DNA from: Xestospongia bergquistia
Lineage: Eukaryota > Porifera > Demospongiae > Haplosclerida > Petrosiidae
Assembly: GCA_963965975.1 (NCBI GenBank)
Contig: OZ014411.1
Coordinates: forward strand, 15,086,446-15,150,445
DNA length: 64,000 nt
Direction: 5' to 3'
Position 1 is the stretch's first letter. The number at the start of each line of letters is the position of its first letter. The notes under the pieces are model-generated. The model was not told the DNA's origin, ran no database searches, and saw nothing but the letters and a program-made list of their open reading frames with translations. Of the stretch, positions 41,805 to 55,450 are shown in pieces. Made by a program: the position numbers and the translations under genes.

Positions 41805-44116
41805 CTATTTTTCTTTTGATGCAAGTAATGTCTTTTTTGCCATCTTTAAAACACCATCATATGTTAAATTACCACCAATAAAGCCATTACTGTGAACAAA
41901 AATGCATCCAATGATATTACTAAGCTCTGACAACTGATCATCTCTTAGGCCTCTCCATTGTTCTAGTAATGGCAACCTGGACAATAAATTTATCAATATG
42001 GCTTATGAAGAAAGGTATATTATATAAAAAATACATATAAGTTAACACTGGAGTAGTACTAAATTTATATCATACATTTGTTATTAAGGATATTAAATAT
42101 TTAATGTTGGAATGAACAGTGTCCTATAATTACATACAGTAATTACCGTAAGTTGAATGATCCTTTATGAATAGGTACTGCTTGTACTCTCCATTTCTTA
42201 GTACCTGTCTCTGGATAGAGCACAAACTTAATGTTGGTATGGATAGTCAAATTTGATTCTAATACAAACAAATGTTCTGACCAAGGACAAAATTGATCTA
42301 GTTTAATAATTTCTCCACTCTCATCAACCTATAATAACTTTCACAATATTACCAGTATGTCATTTATTACATGCCTCAAATCTCTTTTCCAGAGCACTTT
42401 GAACCATAGTCTTGGCTGGTAACCACGCATTGTTATAATAGAAAACATTAGCTTTGAATTCCTCTCCTACAATCTGCATGGCTGTTTGAAACTTCATCTA
42501 GTAGAGAAAAGAACAGGTAGGTATGATCTATCATATAATAATACACACTCACATCTGTCTCCTGATCAGGATCATTCCAAGCTGGATTAAGTCTAGCTAC
42601 ACGATGTCCAATGGTACTTTTAACAGCATATCTGATATATCAAGAGAATTTCAAAGGAGCATTATAATGTCAGTAGATTAGGGTGGTGCTGAAAAATGTA
42701 AGCAAATGTAACATTGGGTATATTAGAAATTTAAATGAAGTGATTAGACACCAGTAATTTCATTTCTTAGTTACTCCTAACACAAGTTGCTATGTACATT
42801 TATTGATATACTATTAAAGTCTTTAGCCAATAGGAATTATGTGATTTAGAAACCCAAAAAGCCTAACAAAGCCCTCATAGTAAATGGTTCTTAGATTTCC
42901 AAAATATTTAGTTCCATTGGTCTCACAATTTAAAATGAAAAAGAGGAAAGTAAATTAAAAGCATTGACTATACTACCAACGTAATATGATATTATGTTAT
43001 CAAATTATCATAAGAAAGTTACACCTTCTAATTATACTGACTTTGGTACACCCTCTCTTTCTTCAATTCCATTATCCACTCCATCAATTTCTTCAACAAA
43101 ATTACTATATATTACATCATACAACTCCTCCACATCAGATGCTCCTGCAATATAAACCAATATCATATGTTACCATAGTTATCATTATCTACCTGTGTAC
43201 CTGTTATAATAGAAAGAACTCTTTTACCAAAATGTAGATATATAAGTCCAGCACTGCTCAATTTAGTTGTCCATGTCTTTGGGTCTTTTGTTAATGTTGA
43301 CATTGATTCATTAAATGTTCTAACATTAGAAAGATTACCTCAAAACATTTATTATAAGTATGATAGCAGTACATGTTTTTAATACAAGATTAGTATGTAT
43401 GCTATACCAAAAAACCAAGTTTGTACATACAAGTAAACTCTAAATTCTAAACCTTGGAACATAAATCCTATATTTTTTCATTGACTTATTTCTCTGCTTA
43501 GATTTTAGACAGTTCAACTGAGACATGAAGAAAGGGAGATAATTATTTACAAATTTACAACACCAGAGTAGTGAAGTAAATGCCTAAAATGCTATGCTGA
43601 TCATCAAATGGTAATTATAAATGACAATCACATTAACTAAATCTAAACCACAACATTCTCCCTCATGCTACCTCTATAATAACATCATTCATTCTATTGT
43701 ACATAATATCATATTATAAATTATTAGCAATATTCTAACCTTTGATGATGATCATAACGATCTATTGTGGGATCGTAAATACCACCTACATCAACTACAA
43801 TATCACATTCAGACAATAGCTTAGGGTCTCGTGTTCTGACTATAGTTGCAGTTTGATATTCTGGTAGTAATTTTAACATATAACACGCGAACACTTCATC
43901 ACAATGGAAAGTACCATTATGAGTGCCAATAACAGGAGGACTCTTAGATTGTGAAGATTCCATTGGTGGTCCTTCTATATAGAACCAATAGAATTCCAAA
44001 TTCAAATATTCTCTAATTTGTCATTTACCACAATTTATAAGCTTTGCTTTGTCCTCCTCTATATGGTCAACACACGGTCTTTTCTGATGAGGTTCCTTAA
44101 TATCACTATCAGACAT
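41805..44116 (-). CDS. MYG1: MYG1 exonuclease (UPF0160 family), 366 aa
   Basis: Eight exons, 5' to 3': 44029-44116, 43740-43974, 43201-43319, 43042-43144, 42553-42631, 42375-42497, 42147-42328 and 41805-41976. They total 1101 bp in frame. MYG1 is a DHH-like 3'-5' RNA exonuclease acting in nucleolus and mitochondria. Family motifs are intact: [19 protein letters not shown] near the start, [14 protein letters not shown] (metal-binding DHH), [51 protein letters not shown] and [12 protein letters not shown]. The ATG at 44116 gives a Lys/Glu-rich leader without a clear mitochondrial signal. One intron, 42329-42374, is only 46 bp and uses a GC donor. The gene diverges from the CARD-like gene across 268 bp. 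Length and motif order match the family. Confidence 0.95.
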
Positions 44117-44384: not shown

Positions 44385-46856
44385 ATGAAGGTACCTAGTG
44401 TGAAGTATTACAAGACATTAATGAAGGAACAAAGAGCCAGTAGAGTTAAAGATATTATTAAAAAGTACAACGTTCGACTTGTTAAAGGGATTTGTAGTAA
44501 AGTTAGTTTCTGTATATCCGTTGGAAACAGTCTGCTCAGTGCTAATATTATACCTGAAAGAATGTATCATGAGATTGCTAAGTCTGCTAATAAAACTGAT
44601 CCTGAACTTGACATGATATTTGCCTCTCGGATTATGTCAACTATACGTAAAGTGTTGTACAAAGATCCAGAGTGTTTCCCTGTTATTATGAATGTATTCA
44701 GGAAACATCCACCACTTGATAGCCTAGTGACAAAAATGGAAAGAGAATATTGTGAGTTTAATATTTAGTAGTACCTATATGTCTAGCAGAAGTCTTACTT
44801 TGTTGTGTATAGTTAATGTTTAGGACTTAGGGGGTGGGGAACAATTTAATATACCACAAAGTATGCCAGACCTATAGACACTGCCTTAATATTGTTAGAT
44901 TATATCGATTCCTTAAAAGGTTCAATACAGTGTATATACAGTGTAATATATTGAGCTAAGTTGTTTAGATCATAAAATTTTATACCACTATACAGAGCCA
45001 TTTACTATCAAATGTTAATTCTCTTTCGTAATGAAACATCATGAAAGTGACAGCTGTTTGTGTTGTCTTTCTCTCAATGTAATTTCTATCTTTTAATAAT
45101 AATTATTTACTATTATTTTTTAACTATTATGATCGACAAACAATATACATCTGTTTTCCATATAATACTAACATGCAAACATTATTAGGAATTGACATAC
45201 AATTTAATAATGAGTCACACTTCTAAATAACTTATTTTCTGTTATCACACAATGTGTGCTAACTCTATGACACCTTTAATATATATCTTTGTCTAGTTTT
45301 CATAATGACATCATCAGATGCACATAGAATTTCACATACACAATAAATTCAAAGTTTTTCAAACAGAACATGTATATAGAATAATCTACTAAGATATATA
45401 TTGACTAATAAATGCTTACACACCAAAATAAATCTTGTCTACATTAATTTTGTCTTATATCTTCAAAATCTTCCATTTCTTAAAAAATCAGATGTTATAG
45501 AGTCCTATTAAACAGGGATGTGGTCATCTCTTAGTACTTCTTCTCATTATCATATCCCAAATTTGAAATTATATCTAATTAATTAAATATACTATTTTCT
45601 TTCTATTTCTTCTTAAGATGGAACTGAGTACTACATAATGAATATATCAATATTTTTAGGAGGTTTGATTACATTCATTGCTATATTTTTAGCATATCTC
45701 ATGTTGTCCACATCATCACCAGGTAAATTATAAAATAGCTTTAAATACAAATACTGATTACCATAATTATACCAGGTAATTTTGGAGGGAGAAAATATTG
45801 GCAAATCAAAATAAAATAGACTTTGATTAAATTAAATTTGGCAGATGACTTTTTCCACCTACTACCACACCCCTAATTAAAACATTGGCAAATAAAATTT
45901 TTGTATATGCAACACAATTTATCATATAGCCAATGTTGTCTTCCTCCAAAATTACCTGCTATGCAGTACTTTTAGTGTCTAATGTTTTGATATATTTGTA
46001 TAATTAATTAATAGACTAATGAATTAGGAAAAATGGAATTAGTTCTCTTAAACAAAACTCTGAAAGTTTTCTATTACTAAATTAAGTAGTACTTATAAAA
46101 TTAATTAAACCACAGGGAGTGTCTATGTCAATACAATATACAGTCCATCAATATAACTTAATTGTCTCCTAACCTTCTATGCACACTTTGTTTGTTTAAC
46201 AGTTGAGCCTTATAAAAACCATTGTTAACTACTCACCTCTGTGTCTATATGTTAATGTAGTATCCTGTTTCCCATATCCTAGTATTCATAAAGTCTTGTT
46301 TGACATTTCCTTCCATATTATAGAATGTTATAGCATGTTTACTAAGCTCACATTAGCATAGCTAAAGTTCCATTAGGAATAAATCATAATGTACCTCCAA
46401 GGTCCTGGTTCTAGTAAGTATGGTTACACTATAATTGTTCACATATATCACCATTTTATGTTTAATTCTCTTGTAGTTTGTCAAGAAGTTAGTCCTAGTA
46501 AATTCTTATTGGCACTTTCTACAGCACCGGTATCAATCAATCTAACTAAACAATCTAACTGTCTGGACTTACATCAAGAAGGAAAACGTCTGTTAAGTTA
46601 TTATAGAGAGATCTGTAAAGAAGGGAATATAACTATATGGTCTACATTACCAGGAAATTGGACCGATTTTGAGTCTTTGGATGATTTTTGTGCAGTAATA
46701 AATACAATAAATAACAAGTTTAATATAACAATTGTTGATAATATTACTGCTATTGAAGATGATTTAATAATGACACCAACATGGTGTTTGAAAGATATAA
46801 TAAACATTTTAGATTGTTTAGGTCTTGATCAAAATTATACATCAATTTTGACTTGA
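44385..46856 (+). CDS. CARD-TM 1: CARD-like single-pass membrane protein, 283 aa
   Basis: Three exons (44385-44751, 45618-45722, 46477-46856), both introns phase 1, total in frame. Residues about 25-122 form a helical death-fold domain closest to CARD in pattern (VRLVKGICSKVSF, IIPERMYHEIAKS, IMSTIRKVLYKDPECFPVIM, PPLDSLVTKMEREY). It clearly resembles the first domain of the next gene. Exon 2 encodes one membrane segment (IFLGGLITFIAIFLAYLML). The C-terminal 125 residues have six N-X-S/T sequons and several cysteines (for example GNITIWSTLPGNWTDF) and match no family I know. This suggests a type II protein with the CARD-like domain in the cytosol and a glycosylated ectodomain. Likely apoptosis or innate-immune signalling, by inference only. 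Confidence 0.75.
45723..46476. other. CARD-TM 1 intron 2
   Basis: AT-rich, 754 bp. A short open frame runs into exon 3 from 46389 but lacks splice support; exon 2 joins 46477 directly in phase. Nothing else was seen. Confidence 0.55.
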
Positions 46857-46937: not shown

Positions 46938-49900
46938 ATGCCGTCAAAAGAGGCGTCTCTGTTGAGAAAATATTTCGACAAATTAGTCAGTGCTATTGCT
47001 AATCCTATACCTCTAGCTGATGCTCTGTATTCTCGTGAGATAATAGACAAGTCAACACAACTTGATGCAGCTATTCAGAGCAAGAACGTTCGGGATCGAT
47101 CTAGCAAGTTGTTATCGGATATTGAACGTTTCTTGGAGAGTGAACCCGACAAATTTGAAACAGTTTTGTCCATTTTTAGAGAACATCTAACTACAGAAAC
47201 CTTGTTAAATGAAATTGAAGGAAAATACTATGAAATAAAAGGTAAGCCACACCCACAGTTGACTTTCCCACTCACCTTACTTCAACAATACTTTCCAGTA
47301 GCATGCCCCAGTGGATTGCAATGTATGTCACTGTAACATGAGATAATAACAGATAGACTATCTTAGAACAAATTGAATATTAAAATATTAAAAATTTTGG
47401 TCTTAAAATTAGCAATTATCTACACTTTCGAAATGTGGGATTTTAGTAAAAATGCTTTGTTCTACAGTTTCAGATTTAGCCTATTTCTTACCAGACTTTG
47501 TATCCGTACTTACATGACAAAGACATAGATCACATGATCATTACTTTGTAGCTTTAATTACATGTGGTCATAGTTGTCAAGAAAGAGAAATCTTGAGACT
47601 TATAAGCTATTTGGCCATTGAAAATGACTTTTATGAGCTATTAGGTGTGGTAAAGATATCATAGGGACACCTCCGCTACTACTGCAGCAAGGGTTCAGCA
47701 CTTTAGTGCTTTTTTTTTAATTAGTGTTTGTAAGTTTGATTACCAATACTCATTTCTTAGAAATACATTAATACTGATATTGATAGCAATATCAGTATTG
47801 ATGAAATACTATGACATAATCATCAATAAAGTAATAACAAAGATCATATTGTGGTTGTATGAATTATAATTGTAGCTGAAGTGTGTTTAGCTAAATTGCT
47901 GAAAACTAGATGAACATTATTTATATATGGGACTGACCCTTTATTTTTATAATTAAATTTCAAATTTAATGACTTATAACTAGTAATTATGATTATTAAT
48001 CATATTCATATGTAGTTCACTTGAAGGTAGTATTGTTTGTTCTTTTGTTTGTTTAGATAGCAAAATAAATAATGAAAATGAAGTGAGACAAAGAAAGAAA
48101 CAAAAAATAGAACAAGAAGGTGAGTAATACATTGTAATAACAAACAATGGTCTAGTTATAGCACATGCCAATTGATACTTAATTCAAATATGTGAGTCAC
48201 TCGTGAGTTAACTTGAGAAACAAATGAGGCCGTAACTTCATATTTGCAAGTACCAATGATGATTACCACACATGAATAGATCTATGAATCCCTCCCAATA
48301 GGAAATGAACAGAAAACAACTTTTTGTGAGCAATAATGACTTAATGTTTGTTTAATAGTTAGTCTAGTCTATTTTATGTCACACGTAACTGGTAAAGGCT
48401 AGCATTTGAAGCAAACTATCATCAAATCTTTGACTCAACAAGTGTTGGTTTGGCTCAATAGAACACTTCACCTTTCATGCACAAAGTTCACATAAAGATA
48501 AAGATCACTTAGACAAACTCTACTACTGCATTTGAAGTTTTCTTGGATGCAGAAGCATGTTAATCAGACTTTTACTTCTCATATGCGAGTATTCTAACAT
48601 TACATGTGACATTGATGAATCTGCTAAAATTTCCCAAGTTGCTATATTAAACCCTAGAAAAATTTCTACCACAATATAATAACTTTTGCCAACACCTAGA
48701 GTACATGAGTACGGGAGCATATATTGTTATGTGAGTGTAGACCCTCCTATCTATTATTCACTTGTAGGGGATACATCTGACAAGACTAATATAAGAAGAG
48801 TTTTTCATATAATTACCACATTTAAACTATTTCACCAATGACATTTATTTGTAGATGAACAGGGTGAAGATGATACTGATGATAATAGTAACTTTTCATG
48901 TTGGCCTGCAGTGAAGGGTGTCGGTGCTGTTATGTTGGTATCGCTGGTCATCTGGATTATCTGTATGGTAGGATATAGCTTTCTAGGTATGGAAATATTG
49001 ATGACATATTATCATAACGTTATTACTAGGGTTGTCTTAAATGTACTGATAGTTCACTGGAATTTCTTAAGTAATGTTTTTCAAAGTCTTCATATTGTCT
49101 TGCACACATCTTATGTTAGCAATCTTTGATCGTTTTAAGGAGTTTTTTAGTGACCAGCTTAATAATTACAGGATGATTTTTATAGCTATAATCTTGTTGA
49201 ATCGATTTATCAACTTTTCCCTTTTGTGTTCATGCCTTTATTACTAGTTACTGGATTATAGCATTAGACTATTAGTATTTGGCTTTATAGTTATTTCTTT
49301 GTTTAGCTTTCAATATTTATAATGAGGCGAATCCTACTATTTCTAAGTCACCAGAATATACTTCACATCCCTCATCAGGTGTGATCCTTTATATTCTAAT
49401 TTACTATAATAACATAGTCTAATGATAGGTTATATCTTAAGCCTGTATTATTAATTTATTATAATAATTTTAGTGATTTTAGGGACTACCCCTTACTACT
49501 AGTAATTGTTAAAATTTGTTCACATTAAACTTTATTTTCATTGTTGAAAGTAAGTTTAATAGGTCACAACTGATAATCTGAACATTTTAAATTTAATAAG
49601 CTTAATTGAGATACTAATGGTTAAACAAAAATTAATGACCATTATTCTCATTTTATAGGTTCTTGTCATCACATTAATCCTTCAACAGCATATGAAGAGC
49701 TATATACAGAGATTGCAGATGCTAAAATGTTTGGTATTCACTTAGGCTTGCCTAAAGTGAAGATGGACATCATTGAAAGAGAGAATCGTTCAGAAAGAGA
49801 AAGACTACTTGAAGTATTGCATACTTGTAATGACCTCAACTTATGTTTATGTTGGGAAGATATTGCTCAAGCATTAGTTAAATACGGCAATGTCCGCAAG

Positions 49901-49948
49901 GCAAAGGAAATAGAGAACAAATACATTACAATTGAAAACAAGAACTAG
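46938..49948 (+). CDS. CARD-TM-DD 2: CARD-like, membrane segment, death domain, 286 aa
   Basis: Five exons (46938-47241, 48057-48119, 48855-48986, 49307-49378, 49659-49948), every intron phase 1, total 861 bp in frame. Residues 8-98 form a CARD-like domain (KYFDKLVSAIANPIPLADAL, SSKLLSDIERFLESEPDKF, TVLSIFREHL). A basic linker (RQRKKQK), then an acidic linker, lead to one membrane segment (VGAVMLVSLVIWIICMVGYS) around residue 150. The last ~85 residues are a death domain (HLGLPKVKMDIIERE, RLLEVLHTC, CWEDIAQALVKYGNVRKAKEI). It starts 82 bp after CARD-TM 1 stops, so the two are tandem duplicates that differ after the membrane segment. Two death folds on opposite sides of one membrane segment are puzzling, but the membrane exon (132 bp) can be skipped in frame. 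Death domain firm; CARD probable. Confidence 0.8.
47242..48056. other. CARD-TM-DD 2 intron 1
   Basis: 815 bp, AT-rich. It contains a short perfect inverted repeat near 47771-47805 (TACTGATATTGATAGC/AATATCAGTATTGATG type). No exon was recognised. Confidence 0.5.
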
Positions 49949-51379: not shown

Positions 51380-54300
51380 ATGGTAAGCAATTTGGTTCTA
51401 GTATATTACATTTTCTATTTCATTTAGAGAGCTATCAATAGTTATCTATTCTATGTAATTCTACTTGTGATTACTCCTGTGTTAAGATGTTCCTGTAAAG
51501 AACTCTATGTATCAGCTGTTGATGGAGCACCTTGTCCAAGCAACACCATCCCTTGTAACGAACTTGCCTTCTACACTAACAATTCTGAGTTCTATTTCAC
51601 TCATGATACTATTTTCTATTTCCTGGAGGGGATTCACTCACTTGAACAGGAGGTGCTAATTTTTGGAGTGAGTAACATAACTTTACAAGGGCTAGGAGAA
51701 ATGGTGCAGGGTTTTCATGAGACAGTGATGGAATCTACTGTTAAAATAAATTGTTTTGGAGGTAGTTCTGCCATAGTATTTTTAAACTCAAGTAATGTCA
51801 CTATAAAAGGCTTAACTATATCTGAATGCAGTATAAATGCTAACTTGATTAATCTTAACAACTTTTATTCCCTATATTATGATATAAGAGTTGCATTAGG
51901 CTTCTTTGAAACATATAATGTCTCTATTAGTAATTGCTCTATTCAAAACAATACTGGTATTGGACTGATCTTACTCAATGTTTTTGATGTGACCATTACT
52001 TCGTCTTTCTTTTCCAACAACAAAGTACAAGGAAACGTTTATGTAGTAAACAATAATCCTGCCTCATGTCTTCAAACAAATGTAACACAAGTCTACAAGT
52101 TAAACATTTCTGATTCCTACTTCTCGTTTGGTGAAGGATCACTTCAAGCATCAGGTCTGACTATCATTCTACAACAAAATTGTGCTTACAAAGTTGATAT
52201 CACTTTAATAAGGGTAACAGCTTATGGTAATACTGGGACTAGCCAAGCTAACATTGCTTTTTCTACCACTAATACAGTACTGTTTTATTCACTTTTTCTT
52301 GATTCAGTAGTATCAAGTCAAGGAAAAGCTAATGACGGTGAAGGAGGAGGTATGGCAATTGATATTGGATTGAAGAGTGATTCGTCTGAATGTTCTTGTT
52401 CATACAAATCTCCTTCACAAGAAGCTACACCAATAAGAGTACAAAACAGCCAGTTCTTTGAAAATACTGCCTTTGTTGGTGCTGGGTTCAAGCTGTCCAC
52501 AAAAAGAACAGGAAATTTGACAATAAAACAAGAGTTTGTAATAGAATCTTGTCAGTTTCATGATAATATAGGCTATAATGCTGGAAGTGGTGTCTACATA
52601 ACTCAAATAGAAATATTGCCTTTTAATTCTCCACTTTTATTCATCTTGACAAATTTGACCATTAACAACAACATAATTCTTGACCTAGAAAAGTCATGTG
52701 CTATGTTTCTTTATGGTGTAGAGCTGGCTACCATCCATAATATACAATTGTTTAATAATAGCGACACTGGTCTCATTGTTTATGATTCTACTGCTAATTT
52801 TTCTGGTTTTTACAATAAGATTTACAACAATAATGCCACTCGTGGAGGTGGTATTGCTGTTTATGGTAGATCCTATCTGATCATTTCTAATGAGACAAGC
52901 ATTGAATTCCTTAATAACCATGCTTCAAAAGTAGGAGGTGGAATTTACATCAACACAAAGTCCCCATATATAAATATCTGTGTTGTTCAATTTTCATACC
53001 TTCAAGAGGATGTGGTTCCTGATACTCGTTTGTATTTTTTTAATAACACAGCTGGAACTGCTGGATCAGCAATATATGGTGGTAAGCTTGAATATTGCAG
53101 TAATTATTTTGAGAGCTCATTAAATCAGATGACATCATCTTTGTTATATCAATTTGTCAATGTAACCAATCAACCTGGATTATCAGTTATATCATCAGAT
53201 GCAATTCATATTTGTTTTTGCACCAATGGCTTCCCAAATTGCTCTCATACTTTCCAAACAATGACCTTGTCAGCTTATCCTGGAGATAATATTAATATTC
53301 CACTTATTGCTACTGGACAAACAGGAGGTGTCACACGAGGTATTGTCTCGATATTTACATCAAGTAATACACAAGTGTTCAATATACCTCCCTCATGTAC
53401 TAACATCAATTATACTATCACTAACATTGGCGATAATAACGTATCATACATTAACATATCAATTGATCTAGCAAATAGAAACCTAGATAGTCCAAATCAA
53501 TTTTTGACAGTTAATGTTTCCATTCTTCCATGTCCTCCTGGTTTTTCAATCTCCCCAGAAAGTGGTATATGTGACTGCTCTCCTGTTTTAGTTAATTCTG
53601 CCATACAAGTTGCGTGTAATATCACAACAAATGTTTTAGTTAGGGAGGGAGACTCTTGGATAGGTTACAATGAACAAGATCGTTGTGTTATAATCCAAGA
53701 AGAATGTCCATTTGACTATTGTAAAACATCTACTGTTGCTTTTGACATTACTGTATCTGATTCTCTATGTGCTCTTAATAGGTCTGGATTACTCTGTGGA
53801 CAATGTGCTAATGGACTCAGTCTCATGTTAGGTTCCAATCAATGTGGAGAATGTACTAATAGTTACTTAGCTCTTATCATTCCATTTGCTGTGGCTGGTA
53901 TAGTACTGGTAGCTTTACTTACAAGTCTGAATTTGACGGTATCAACAGGGTCAATTAATGGACTCATATTCTATGCTAACATTGTGAAAATTCATGAAAC
54001 AGTTTTCTTTCCAAACACATCAGTACCATTTCTGAAACAATTTATTGGATGGCTCAATTTAGATCTGAGTATACCAGTTTGCTTTTATGATGGTATGACA
54101 GCTTATCATAAGATTTGGCTTCAGTTTGTATTTCCTTTCTATCTATGGGCTATCATAGGACTCATTATTTTCCTTTCTCATTACTCTCAGAGAATTTCAA
54201 AAGTAATGGGAAGGCATTCTATATCTGTTCTAGCTACAGTTTTTCTACTTTCTTTTACTAAATTATTTCGAACATGTATTCTTGTCTTTCAAATTGACTA

Positions 54301-55090
54301 CTTGGAGTGTGGAGTCAAACATTTATCAGTTTGGGGAGTTGATGCCAATGTACCATACTGGAATCCTCCACATTTGATCATGACCCTGTTTGCTCTCTTT
54401 GTAACTTTTTTTCTCATTTTACCTTACACTTTACTACTTCTCTTCAGTCCACTTATTGAAGGCTATTTCTCACGTTATCGATGCTGCAAGGGATGGATTA
54501 AACTTAAACCATTATTTGATGCTTACAATGGTCCTTACAGAGATCGCTATCGGTTCTGGACAGGACTTCTATTGCTTGCCCGACTTGTACTTGTACAAGT
54601 CTTTGCCTATAATACAGATACTACAACAACTAATATTGCTATCATTATAACCACAGCTATTTTGTTTACCATCAGTAACCTCTCGTCAGGACTCTACCAG
54701 AACAAAATTAATGATTTTCTTGAATGTTGGTTCCTTCTTAATGTGATCATCATTGCAGCAACAAGTGTCAGTGAGAAAACACACAATGCTGCATTAGTAT
54801 CTGTAATAATGGCTTTCTTAATATTTATGGTCTTAGTTATATGTCACTTTGTGGTACGAATTGGACTATATCCCAAATTGCATTCTTGTTTAATGGCATT
54901 TTATCATCAACACATCAAGACACACTTTCAACAAAGACAAACATCTACAAATGTCAATATGTTGGGCAACAAACCTACTCTGTCACATGAAAGGTTTGAG
55001 TTATTTCAGGAAGGTAGTGTGTATGTATCAAGAAGAAGAGAGACTTTACTAAATATTAAGGAATCGGGCTACATGCAAACTCCACAATGA
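51380..55090 (+). CDS. Beta-helix ectodomain, multi-pass membrane protein, 1221 aa
   Basis: Exon 1 contributes only the ATG (51380-51382), followed by GTAAGC; exon 2 starts at 51428. The join gives MRAINSYLFYVILLVITPVL, a signal peptide that a start at 51467 would lose. Residues about 25-690 hold beta-helix-like turns (SNITLQGLGEM, SNVTIKGLTISEC, YNVSISNCSIQNNTGIGL, GGIAVYG, GGGIYIN) and many N-glycosylation sequons. A Cys-rich stalk follows (CPPGFSISPESGICDCS, SGLLCGQCANGLSL). From about residue 815 there are roughly eight hydrophobic segments (IIPFAVAGIVLVALLTSL, LWAIIGLIIFLS, VLATVFLLSFTKLF, LFALFVTFFLILPYTLLLLF and others). A Ser/Thr-containing cytosolic tail ends the protein. I know this architecture as a poorly characterised family expanded in sponges; receptor-like function is inference. 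The 3.66-kb exon contrasts with the finely split neighbours. Confidence 0.85.
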
Positions 55091-55450
55091 CTAATAAGTT
55101 GCTGACAGTTTTAAGTATACTTGAATGTTATGAAAATTTAGATCATGTCTACTGATATTTTAAATACAATTTATACAATTGTGTCTATTTACTGTTTCTA
55201 ATTAATCAATTATGATTTGAATAATAAATAGTGCCACTTTGACTGGTTTATAACATTATGTGTTACCTTAGCAGTCTAGATCACTGATATATGGTATAGT
55301 ATCAAGTTTTCAATAATAGTCAGGCTAACTATTTATGAAGTCATCAAAAACAAACCAAATGAAAACAAACAATATTGTATTATATTAGGACAATAATAAC
55401 AAACCACAAAACAATTCTCAAACAGCAAAATATTATACTAAGTAGTGGTT
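55091..55450. other. Convergent spacer
   Basis: 360 bp of AT-rich DNA holding the 3' ends of the beta-helix gene and the integrin gene. No other feature was seen. Confidence 0.6.

Follow-up and report, generated by a model that had tools for sequence, protein, structure and literature searches.

A 64,000-nucleotide stretch of the genome of the sponge Xestospongia bergquistia (assembly GCA_963965975.1, contig OZ014411.1, positions 15,086,446 to 15,150,445, forward strand), here called the window and used for all coordinates without a contig name, contains at 46938-49948 what is, on balance, probably a genuine gene that encodes a single-pass membrane protein. The predicted protein consists of an N-terminal domain of the CARD class, one transmembrane (TM) segment and a C-terminal death domain, and it would have been built by phase-1 exon shuffling within a very large expansion of death-fold domains. 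The domain architecture itself is unusual while its parts are known. The predicted exons are:

46938..47241, + strand: exon 1, start codon and CARD-class domain (amino acids 1-101), phase-1 donor AAG/gtaagc (gene model, profiles, AlphaFold2, Foldseek)
48057..48119, + strand: exon 2, 63 bp, phase 1-1, basic linker (amino acids DSKINNENEVRQRKKQKIEQE) (gene model only)
48855..48986, + strand: exon 3, 132 bp, phase 1-1, acidic stretch followed by the single membrane-spanning segment (gene model, hydrophobicity, simulation)
49307..49378, + strand: exon 4, 72 bp, phase 1-1, linker (gene model only)
49659..49948, + strand: exon 5, death domain and stop codon (gene model, profiles)

Rebuilt from the window, the five exons join into one frame of 286 amino acids with AG/GT borders at every exon and phase 1 throughout. 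The exon positions, the sizes of the inner exons and the phase-1 introns given in an initial annotation of this DNA were all reproduced, and its five-exon observation is confirmed as a sequence feature. Confidence in the predicted gene is lowest for the short linker exons 2 and 4.

The N-terminal domain is assigned to the CARD class at the level of its family. In the genome sequence searched here (146,460,797 bases in 21 contigs, named C1, C5, C11, C15 and so on) the domain has 68 matches at E ≤ 0.1, itself counted, the best paralogue scoring 2e-8 with some 30% identity. When a family member that is better centred serves as query, 79 matches are obtained at E ≤ 0.01, fragments among them. An alignment of 17 family members was compared by HHalign with places in the same genome that match the Pfam CARD and Death families. 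The comparison with 11 of the 16 genomic Pfam-CARD places gives P = 8.9e-10, compared to P = 0.23 for seven Death places. When three of the 11 places that look closest to the N-terminal family are set aside, the remaining eight clear CARDs give P = 6.6e-6 with a probability of 84.8, and P against the CARDs is 7e-6 when the sequence of the upstream neighbour gene described below is removed from the alignment. The smallest P in 30 column shuffles of the alignment is 0.043. Pfam CARD itself is matched by one of the 17 members at E ≤ 1; the CARD of the neighbour gene scores no better than E 0.085. AlphaFold2 was run on two CARD members of the window, and the best model (m48164ac10482) has a predicted local distance difference test score (pLDDT) of 86.8, with 83.5, 80.9, 64.9 and 48.9 for the others. 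In this model, a bundle of six helices, helix 1 is split into residues 4-11 and 13-19, which amounts to a kinked first helix, as is typical of CARDs. In a Foldseek search of the Protein Data Bank (best 50 of 109 matches), 21 of the 22 top matches are CARDs or CARD-carrying proteins (the match of rank 9 is unnamed), with a best probability of 1.00 and TM-scores by query length of 0.57-0.72 for these top matches.

The C-terminal domain has 24 genomic matches at E ≤ 0.1, again with itself counted, and ends in the pattern W-x(2)-I-A-x-A-L-x(3)-G, which we take to be typical of helices 5-6 of death domains. An alignment of six members of this family matches the seven Death places with P = 2.9e-10 and the CARDs with P = 0.028, and Pfam Death is matched in two of the six (best E 2.7e-4, with a cut-off of E ≤ 10). 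At family level the sequence profiles thus favour Death over CARD for this domain, and for both ends of the protein the fold classes named in the initial annotation are borne out in this way, the N-terminal one by profile search and structure prediction in agreement even though Pfam is silent on the protein alone. Calcium ATPases, considered as a solved-structure match of the death domain, were rejected (E 0.22 only, not significant).

Over 19 residues, the hydrophobic segment in exon 3 averages 2.49 on the Kyte-Doolittle scale, compared with 0.78 for the next non-overlapping stretch of the protein, and an octanol sum of -12.8. In 300 first-order Markov simulations of 47242-49658, a phase-1 exon of at least 120 bp with a segment of hydrophobicity 2.4 or more arose once, and one of at least 60 bp twice. 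The same scan over the whole window finds four places on the forward strand, all within apparent genes: exon 3, the TM exon of the neighbour gene, and two in a multi-TM frame at 51.4-55.1 kb. Two more places lie on the reverse strand, one of them a CV dinucleotide repeat and the other opposite the last exon of the neighbour gene. The single membrane segment of the initial annotation therefore holds, being strongly hydrophobic and rare in simulated sequence. These numbers also bear on the possibility that the gene model is spurious or decaying, in which case one or more of exons 2-4 would be parts of AT-rich introns that stay open by chance. Such an artefact would fit the shortness and low information content of exons 2 and 4, the GC content of exon 2 (24%) and the lack of any other genomic match to exon 3 at E ≤ 1; against it stand the rarity of a comparable TM exon in the simulations, the GC content of exon 3 (41.7% as opposed to 23-33% in the introns) and the intact frame, and we consider it very unlikely.

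Relatives of the two halves of the gene are found separately in the genome. A phase-1 donor stands at the end of the domain in 25 of 29 CARD paralogues by a loose donor pattern. Five paralogues read 5.0-5.9 kb downstream all continue into other long frames: in L010 and L012 the CARD is followed first by a kinase-like frame and further on by a large GTPase-like one, and in L011, L014 and L016 by a helical plus alpha/beta region, the names being given by eye from motifs; Pfam has no match to this region in L011. From motifs read by eye, L010 and L012 with L049 and L051 suggest that this CARD family heads proteins with a kinase-like region, a coiled coil and a GTPase-like frame of about 1000 codons. 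A scan for TM exons behind the CARDs of 30 loci (65,872 bases, five loci reaching 5.0-5.9 kb and 25 reaching 1.5 kb) gives candidates with hydrophobicity of at least 1.9 in five loci (L010, L011, L024, L029 and L032; highest value 2.19), all of which were judged to be parts of soluble domains or to overlap introns. This absence of TM exons is a weak result, because 1.5 kb is too short to reach even the window's own TM exon (locus L009).

The closest relatives of the death domain are two copies on C1 (2.286-2.303 Mb), each made up of a basic linker frame, a TM exon of 81 bp in phase 1, and a death-domain exon whose acceptor is phase 1; of the two linker frames, one was scored as a phase-1 exon. 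Their TM peptides are identical. At the DNA level the copies share 97.5% of the TM exon, 84% and 89% of the flanking 201-base intron stretches and 90% of the death-domain exon. The second copy is followed, some 2 kb further on, by a CARD (L067, G000:C1:2304719-2304958) that matches the hidden Markov model (HMM) of the window CARD family at 1.3e-9, and it is possible that this CARD heads a second CARD-TM-death-domain gene. A loose scan before the death-domain relatives on C11 gives TM-exon candidates in L041, L047 and L048. In the tandem TM-death-domain genes of C1 (L069, L040 and L072; G000:C1:2285500-2303200) we also observed an upstream exon with the motif RVNVITGGNVYN(S/N)PNINVNVN, which to us is reminiscent of amyloid or RHIM-type signalling motifs.

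Alternatively, the window could hold two transcription units, exon 1 encoding a CARD-only protein that ends at 47334-47336 and exons 3-5 belonging to a separate TM-death-domain gene whose 5' end is unseen. Without splicing, the frame of exon 1 indeed runs open to the stop codon at 47334-47336, and the nearest death-domain paralogues are TM-death-domain genes in a region, C1 2285500-2303200, where the two family HMMs find no CARD. The donor of exon 1, on the other hand, is strong and stands at the domain end where most of the CARD paralogues have theirs, phases and frame are continuous across all five exons, and a CARD sits just past the C1 array. We regard two units as unlikely and favour one gene, in which a CARD exon, from a family found elsewhere at the head of kinase-like and other signalling frames, would have been placed before a linker-TM-death-domain cassette of the C1 type.

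Several observations weigh against a CARD-TM-death-domain membrane protein. The window protein by itself has no Pfam CARD or Death match: Pfam gives none for the single N-terminal sequence, and Pfam and NCBIfam give no useful match for the death domain. Compared alone, the N-terminal domain reaches P = 0.11 against the CARDs, below significance, and the death domain P = 9.4e-4 against Death and 0.24 against CARD, which is weak for a single sequence. The Death set compared with the eight CARDs itself scores P = 0.0046, so that values near this level carry little meaning, and the alignments of the two domain families of the gene compared with each other fall in this background (P = 0.008-0.011). 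Pfam CARD_2 is matched in one of the six members of the C-terminal family (3.8e-4). No Foldseek match of the CARD model reaches E ≤ 0.001 among the best 50 of 109, and a solved-structure sequence search with the N-terminal domain gave nothing significant (12 matches, best E 0.4). The single-sequence AlphaFold2 model of the death domain has a pLDDT of 57.5 and an uninformative fold search, and because of this low confidence the death-domain assignment rests on profiles. A strict scan finds no TM exon at the C11 death-domain loci L041 and L047. The 81-base intron stretch just after the C1 TM exon is 96.3% identical between the copies as well, so that the conservation of that exon stands out little. 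Finally, a single pass sets one normally cytosolic domain outside the cytosol, an arrangement which fits no pathway known to us.

A second gene of similar plan lies on the same strand and ends 81 bp upstream of the start codon of the CARD-TM-death-domain gene. Its predicted exons are:

44385..44751, + strand: exon 1, CARD-class domain of the same family, phase-1 donor ATT/gtgagt (profile, gene model)
45618..45722, + strand: TM exon, 105 bp, phase 1-1, hydrophobicity 2.53 (gene model only)
46477..46856, + strand: terminal exon, domain of 126 amino acids with 6 N-glycosylation sequons (gene model)

The two CARDs of the window are 29% identical. The terminal domain of the neighbour has no Pfam match and no significant relative in the genome (one weak, broken match at E 0.2); it looks similar by eye to the alpha/beta region of L011-type proteins, a likeness that the profile comparison rejects (P = 0.49). 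Because the neighbour shares the CARD-TM plan, the window gene appears as one of a pair of neighbouring CARD-TM genes that differ in their C-termini, and the same shared plan, together with the phase-1 TM exon of the C1 paralogues, leads us to propose shuffling of phase-1 modules within a large death-fold expansion. A sponge genome may in this way assemble signalling architectures out of interchangeable phase-1 exons.

Death folds are generally regarded as signalling modules of the cytosol or nucleus, and with a single span one of the two domains would have to lie outside the cytosol. The arrangement slightly favoured by the sequence has the CARD inside and the death domain outside. We consider a cytosolic CARD most likely because no signal peptide is evident by eye in the protein, which begins MPSKEASLLRKYFDKL, because the net charge of the 10 residues flanking the TM segment is +1 before and -1 after it, and because the C-terminal end of the neighbour is rich in sequons. 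The neighbour's terminal domain has its 6 sequons where 1.8 are expected by shuffling (P = 0.003, tested after the sequons had been noticed), which favours an outer C-terminus for the product of that gene. The same evidence makes it possible, in our tentative view, that the window protein is a type II receptor with a cytosolic CARD and a death-fold C-terminus outside the cell or in the lumen of the endoplasmic reticulum, where it would serve as a binding or self-association domain. The TM flanks of the C1 paralogues (+1 before, -2 after, hand-joined across assumed exon borders) are consistent with such a receptor. No clear charge rule is seen with 15 flanking residues (-1 and -1) or 20 (-4 before, -1 after), however, and the neighbour's own TM flanks are near neutral (-1 and 0). 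Moreover, a single sequon falls in the window death domain and none in the CARD, with one more just before the TM segment, and no precedent for a receptor of this type is known to us. It is doubtful that an outer or lumenal death domain of a type II protein does the sensing or self-association and so drives the cytosolic CARD, with two tandem genes swapping their outer domain by phase-1 shuffling.

Returning to the CARD-TM-death-domain membrane protein in general, the most likely mechanism in our view is that the TM segment would anchor it with the CARD in the cytosol, that clustering through the other end could bring CARDs together, and that the gathered CARDs might nucleate homotypic assembly with the many proteins of the same CARD family. 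The outcome would presumably be immune or cell-death signalling. If true, a death fold on each side of the membrane, or a protein whose choice of exons places it at the membrane or in the cytosol, would represent a new wiring of death-fold signalling.

The second of these arrangements stems from the initial annotation, where the in-frame skipping of the 132-bp exon was taken to suggest a switch between membrane-bound and soluble forms. The arithmetic is correct: the frame is kept when exon 3 is dropped, and likewise when exons 2 and 3 are. Such a switch would give a soluble adaptor with a CARD and a death domain, like vertebrate RAIDD/CRADD, in cells that skip exon 3 and a membrane form elsewhere, and in the soluble form the CARD and the death domain would share the cytosol, the usual site of action of such domains. 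Exon 3 also has weaker splice sites than the other inner exons, with a donor at 6 of 9 and 10 pyrimidines out of 17 at the acceptor, which is a hint only. Skippability is nevertheless not a sign of regulation, because phase 1 is the rule in this modular family of CARD and death-domain genes: the inner exons are all phase 1-1 and exons 2, 3 and 4 equally skippable, the phase-1 donor is general among the CARD paralogues, and the TM exons on C1 are phase 1 as well. The identical TM peptide of the two C1 copies is in addition a weak argument that inclusion matters there. A splice switch thus appears rather unlikely; the splicing itself, the CARD-CARD partners and any soluble isoform are inferred.

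The initial annotation further knew of no described protein with this layout. Judged by title or abstract, the papers listed in literature searches on the layout include no CARD-TM-death-domain protein; the layout is less isolated than was claimed, given the CARD-TM neighbour, the TM-death-domain genes on C1 and a series of CARD-Death pairs on C15. A genome-wide comparison of pairs on the same strand up to 8 kb apart covered 107 CARD-family and 178 Death places after merging. Of the 79 rows of the wider CARD-family search 40 were entered, and of the 26 rows of a further search 4, the rest being fragments or overlapping rows of the earlier searches with the N-terminal and the C-terminal domain, respectively. 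The Death list holds the 150 scored of 983 candidates, so the genome has at least 150 Death-domain places and CARD-Death pairs may have been missed. Among the places compared, and with these gaps, a Death place within 5 kb downstream of a CARD of the window family occurs only in the window. The CARD of the neighbour gene also lies 4.9 kb before the window Death place but belongs to the other gene, and one further pair, on C5, is 6.2 kb apart. On C15, CARDs from a separate Pfam-CARD list lie 0.6-3.1 kb before Death places; L054 (G000:C15:3489587-3491364) has two CARDs in one 228-codon frame followed on the same strand by two death-domain-like frames, with no frame of hydrophobicity 2.4 or more between them (highest 2.11). 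Since the C15 series reads without a strong TM segment, the genome probably also holds soluble CARD-death-domain genes. The reversed order was also observed, with a Death place 150-582 bp before a CARD-family place on the same strand, at G000:C1:14366969-14367546, G000:C3:1377109-1378106 and G000:C4:9455673-9456253.

Known systems share parts of this architecture. RAIDD/CRADD, which binds caspase-2 and PIDD1 via its CARD and death domain, is likewise a short protein with its CARD at the N-terminus and its death domain at the C-terminus. It is soluble and without a membrane segment, whereas the window protein has a strong TM segment unless exon 3 is skipped; the RAIDD CARD (3crd) is not significant in the profile search (E 0.76). 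In death receptors of the TNFR, Fas and p75 kind a single TM segment precedes a C-terminal death domain, as in the window gene and its C1 paralogues, but the receptors carry a signal peptide and a cysteine-rich ectodomain where the window protein has a CARD and a charged linker. MAVS, too, tethers a CARD to a membrane; it ends at its anchor, while in the window protein the death domain follows the TM segment.

Comparable expansions have been described in other animals. The demosponge Amphimedon has 357 TRADD-N proteins, the majority of whose architectures have one to three N-terminal Death-like domains and variable C-termini, and up to half of the architectures are unique according to the section on these proteins in Kaur et al. 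2021 (PMC8195603), so that odd domain combinations are to be expected in sponges. That section mentions no TM form. TRADD-N is not evident in the 286-amino-acid window protein, for which a general Pfam scan gave no match and no search aimed at TRADD-N was made; the helical plus alpha/beta region of the CARD paralogues L011, L014 and L016 may resemble the Amphimedon kind as that section presents it. TM proteins of Crassostrea virginica, in the passage of the same article that deals with them, are membrane-anchored death-fold proteins in a lineage-specific expansion, like the window gene, but have a cysteine-rich ectodomain with DED and TRADD-N inside the cell. In amphioxus, TNFR-caspase hybrid genes (PMC2575513) represent new membrane signalling architectures from shuffled apoptosis modules, as proposed here, although the hybrids as that article describes them combine an extracellular TNFR with an intracellular caspase and do not have the CARD-TM-death-domain order.

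Three other frames of the window were noted. An open frame at 43724-44020 on the reverse strand looks like a member of the MYG1 family. A 31-codon frame at 55060-55152 (forward strand) partly matches the CARD-family HMM, in the C-terminal third of the model (E 0.0013), possibly by chance. The 1220-codon frame at 51428-55090 (forward strand) probably encodes a multi-pass receptor-like protein, in which the N-terminal part is repetitive and rich in asparagine and several hydrophobic segments lie close to the C-terminus.

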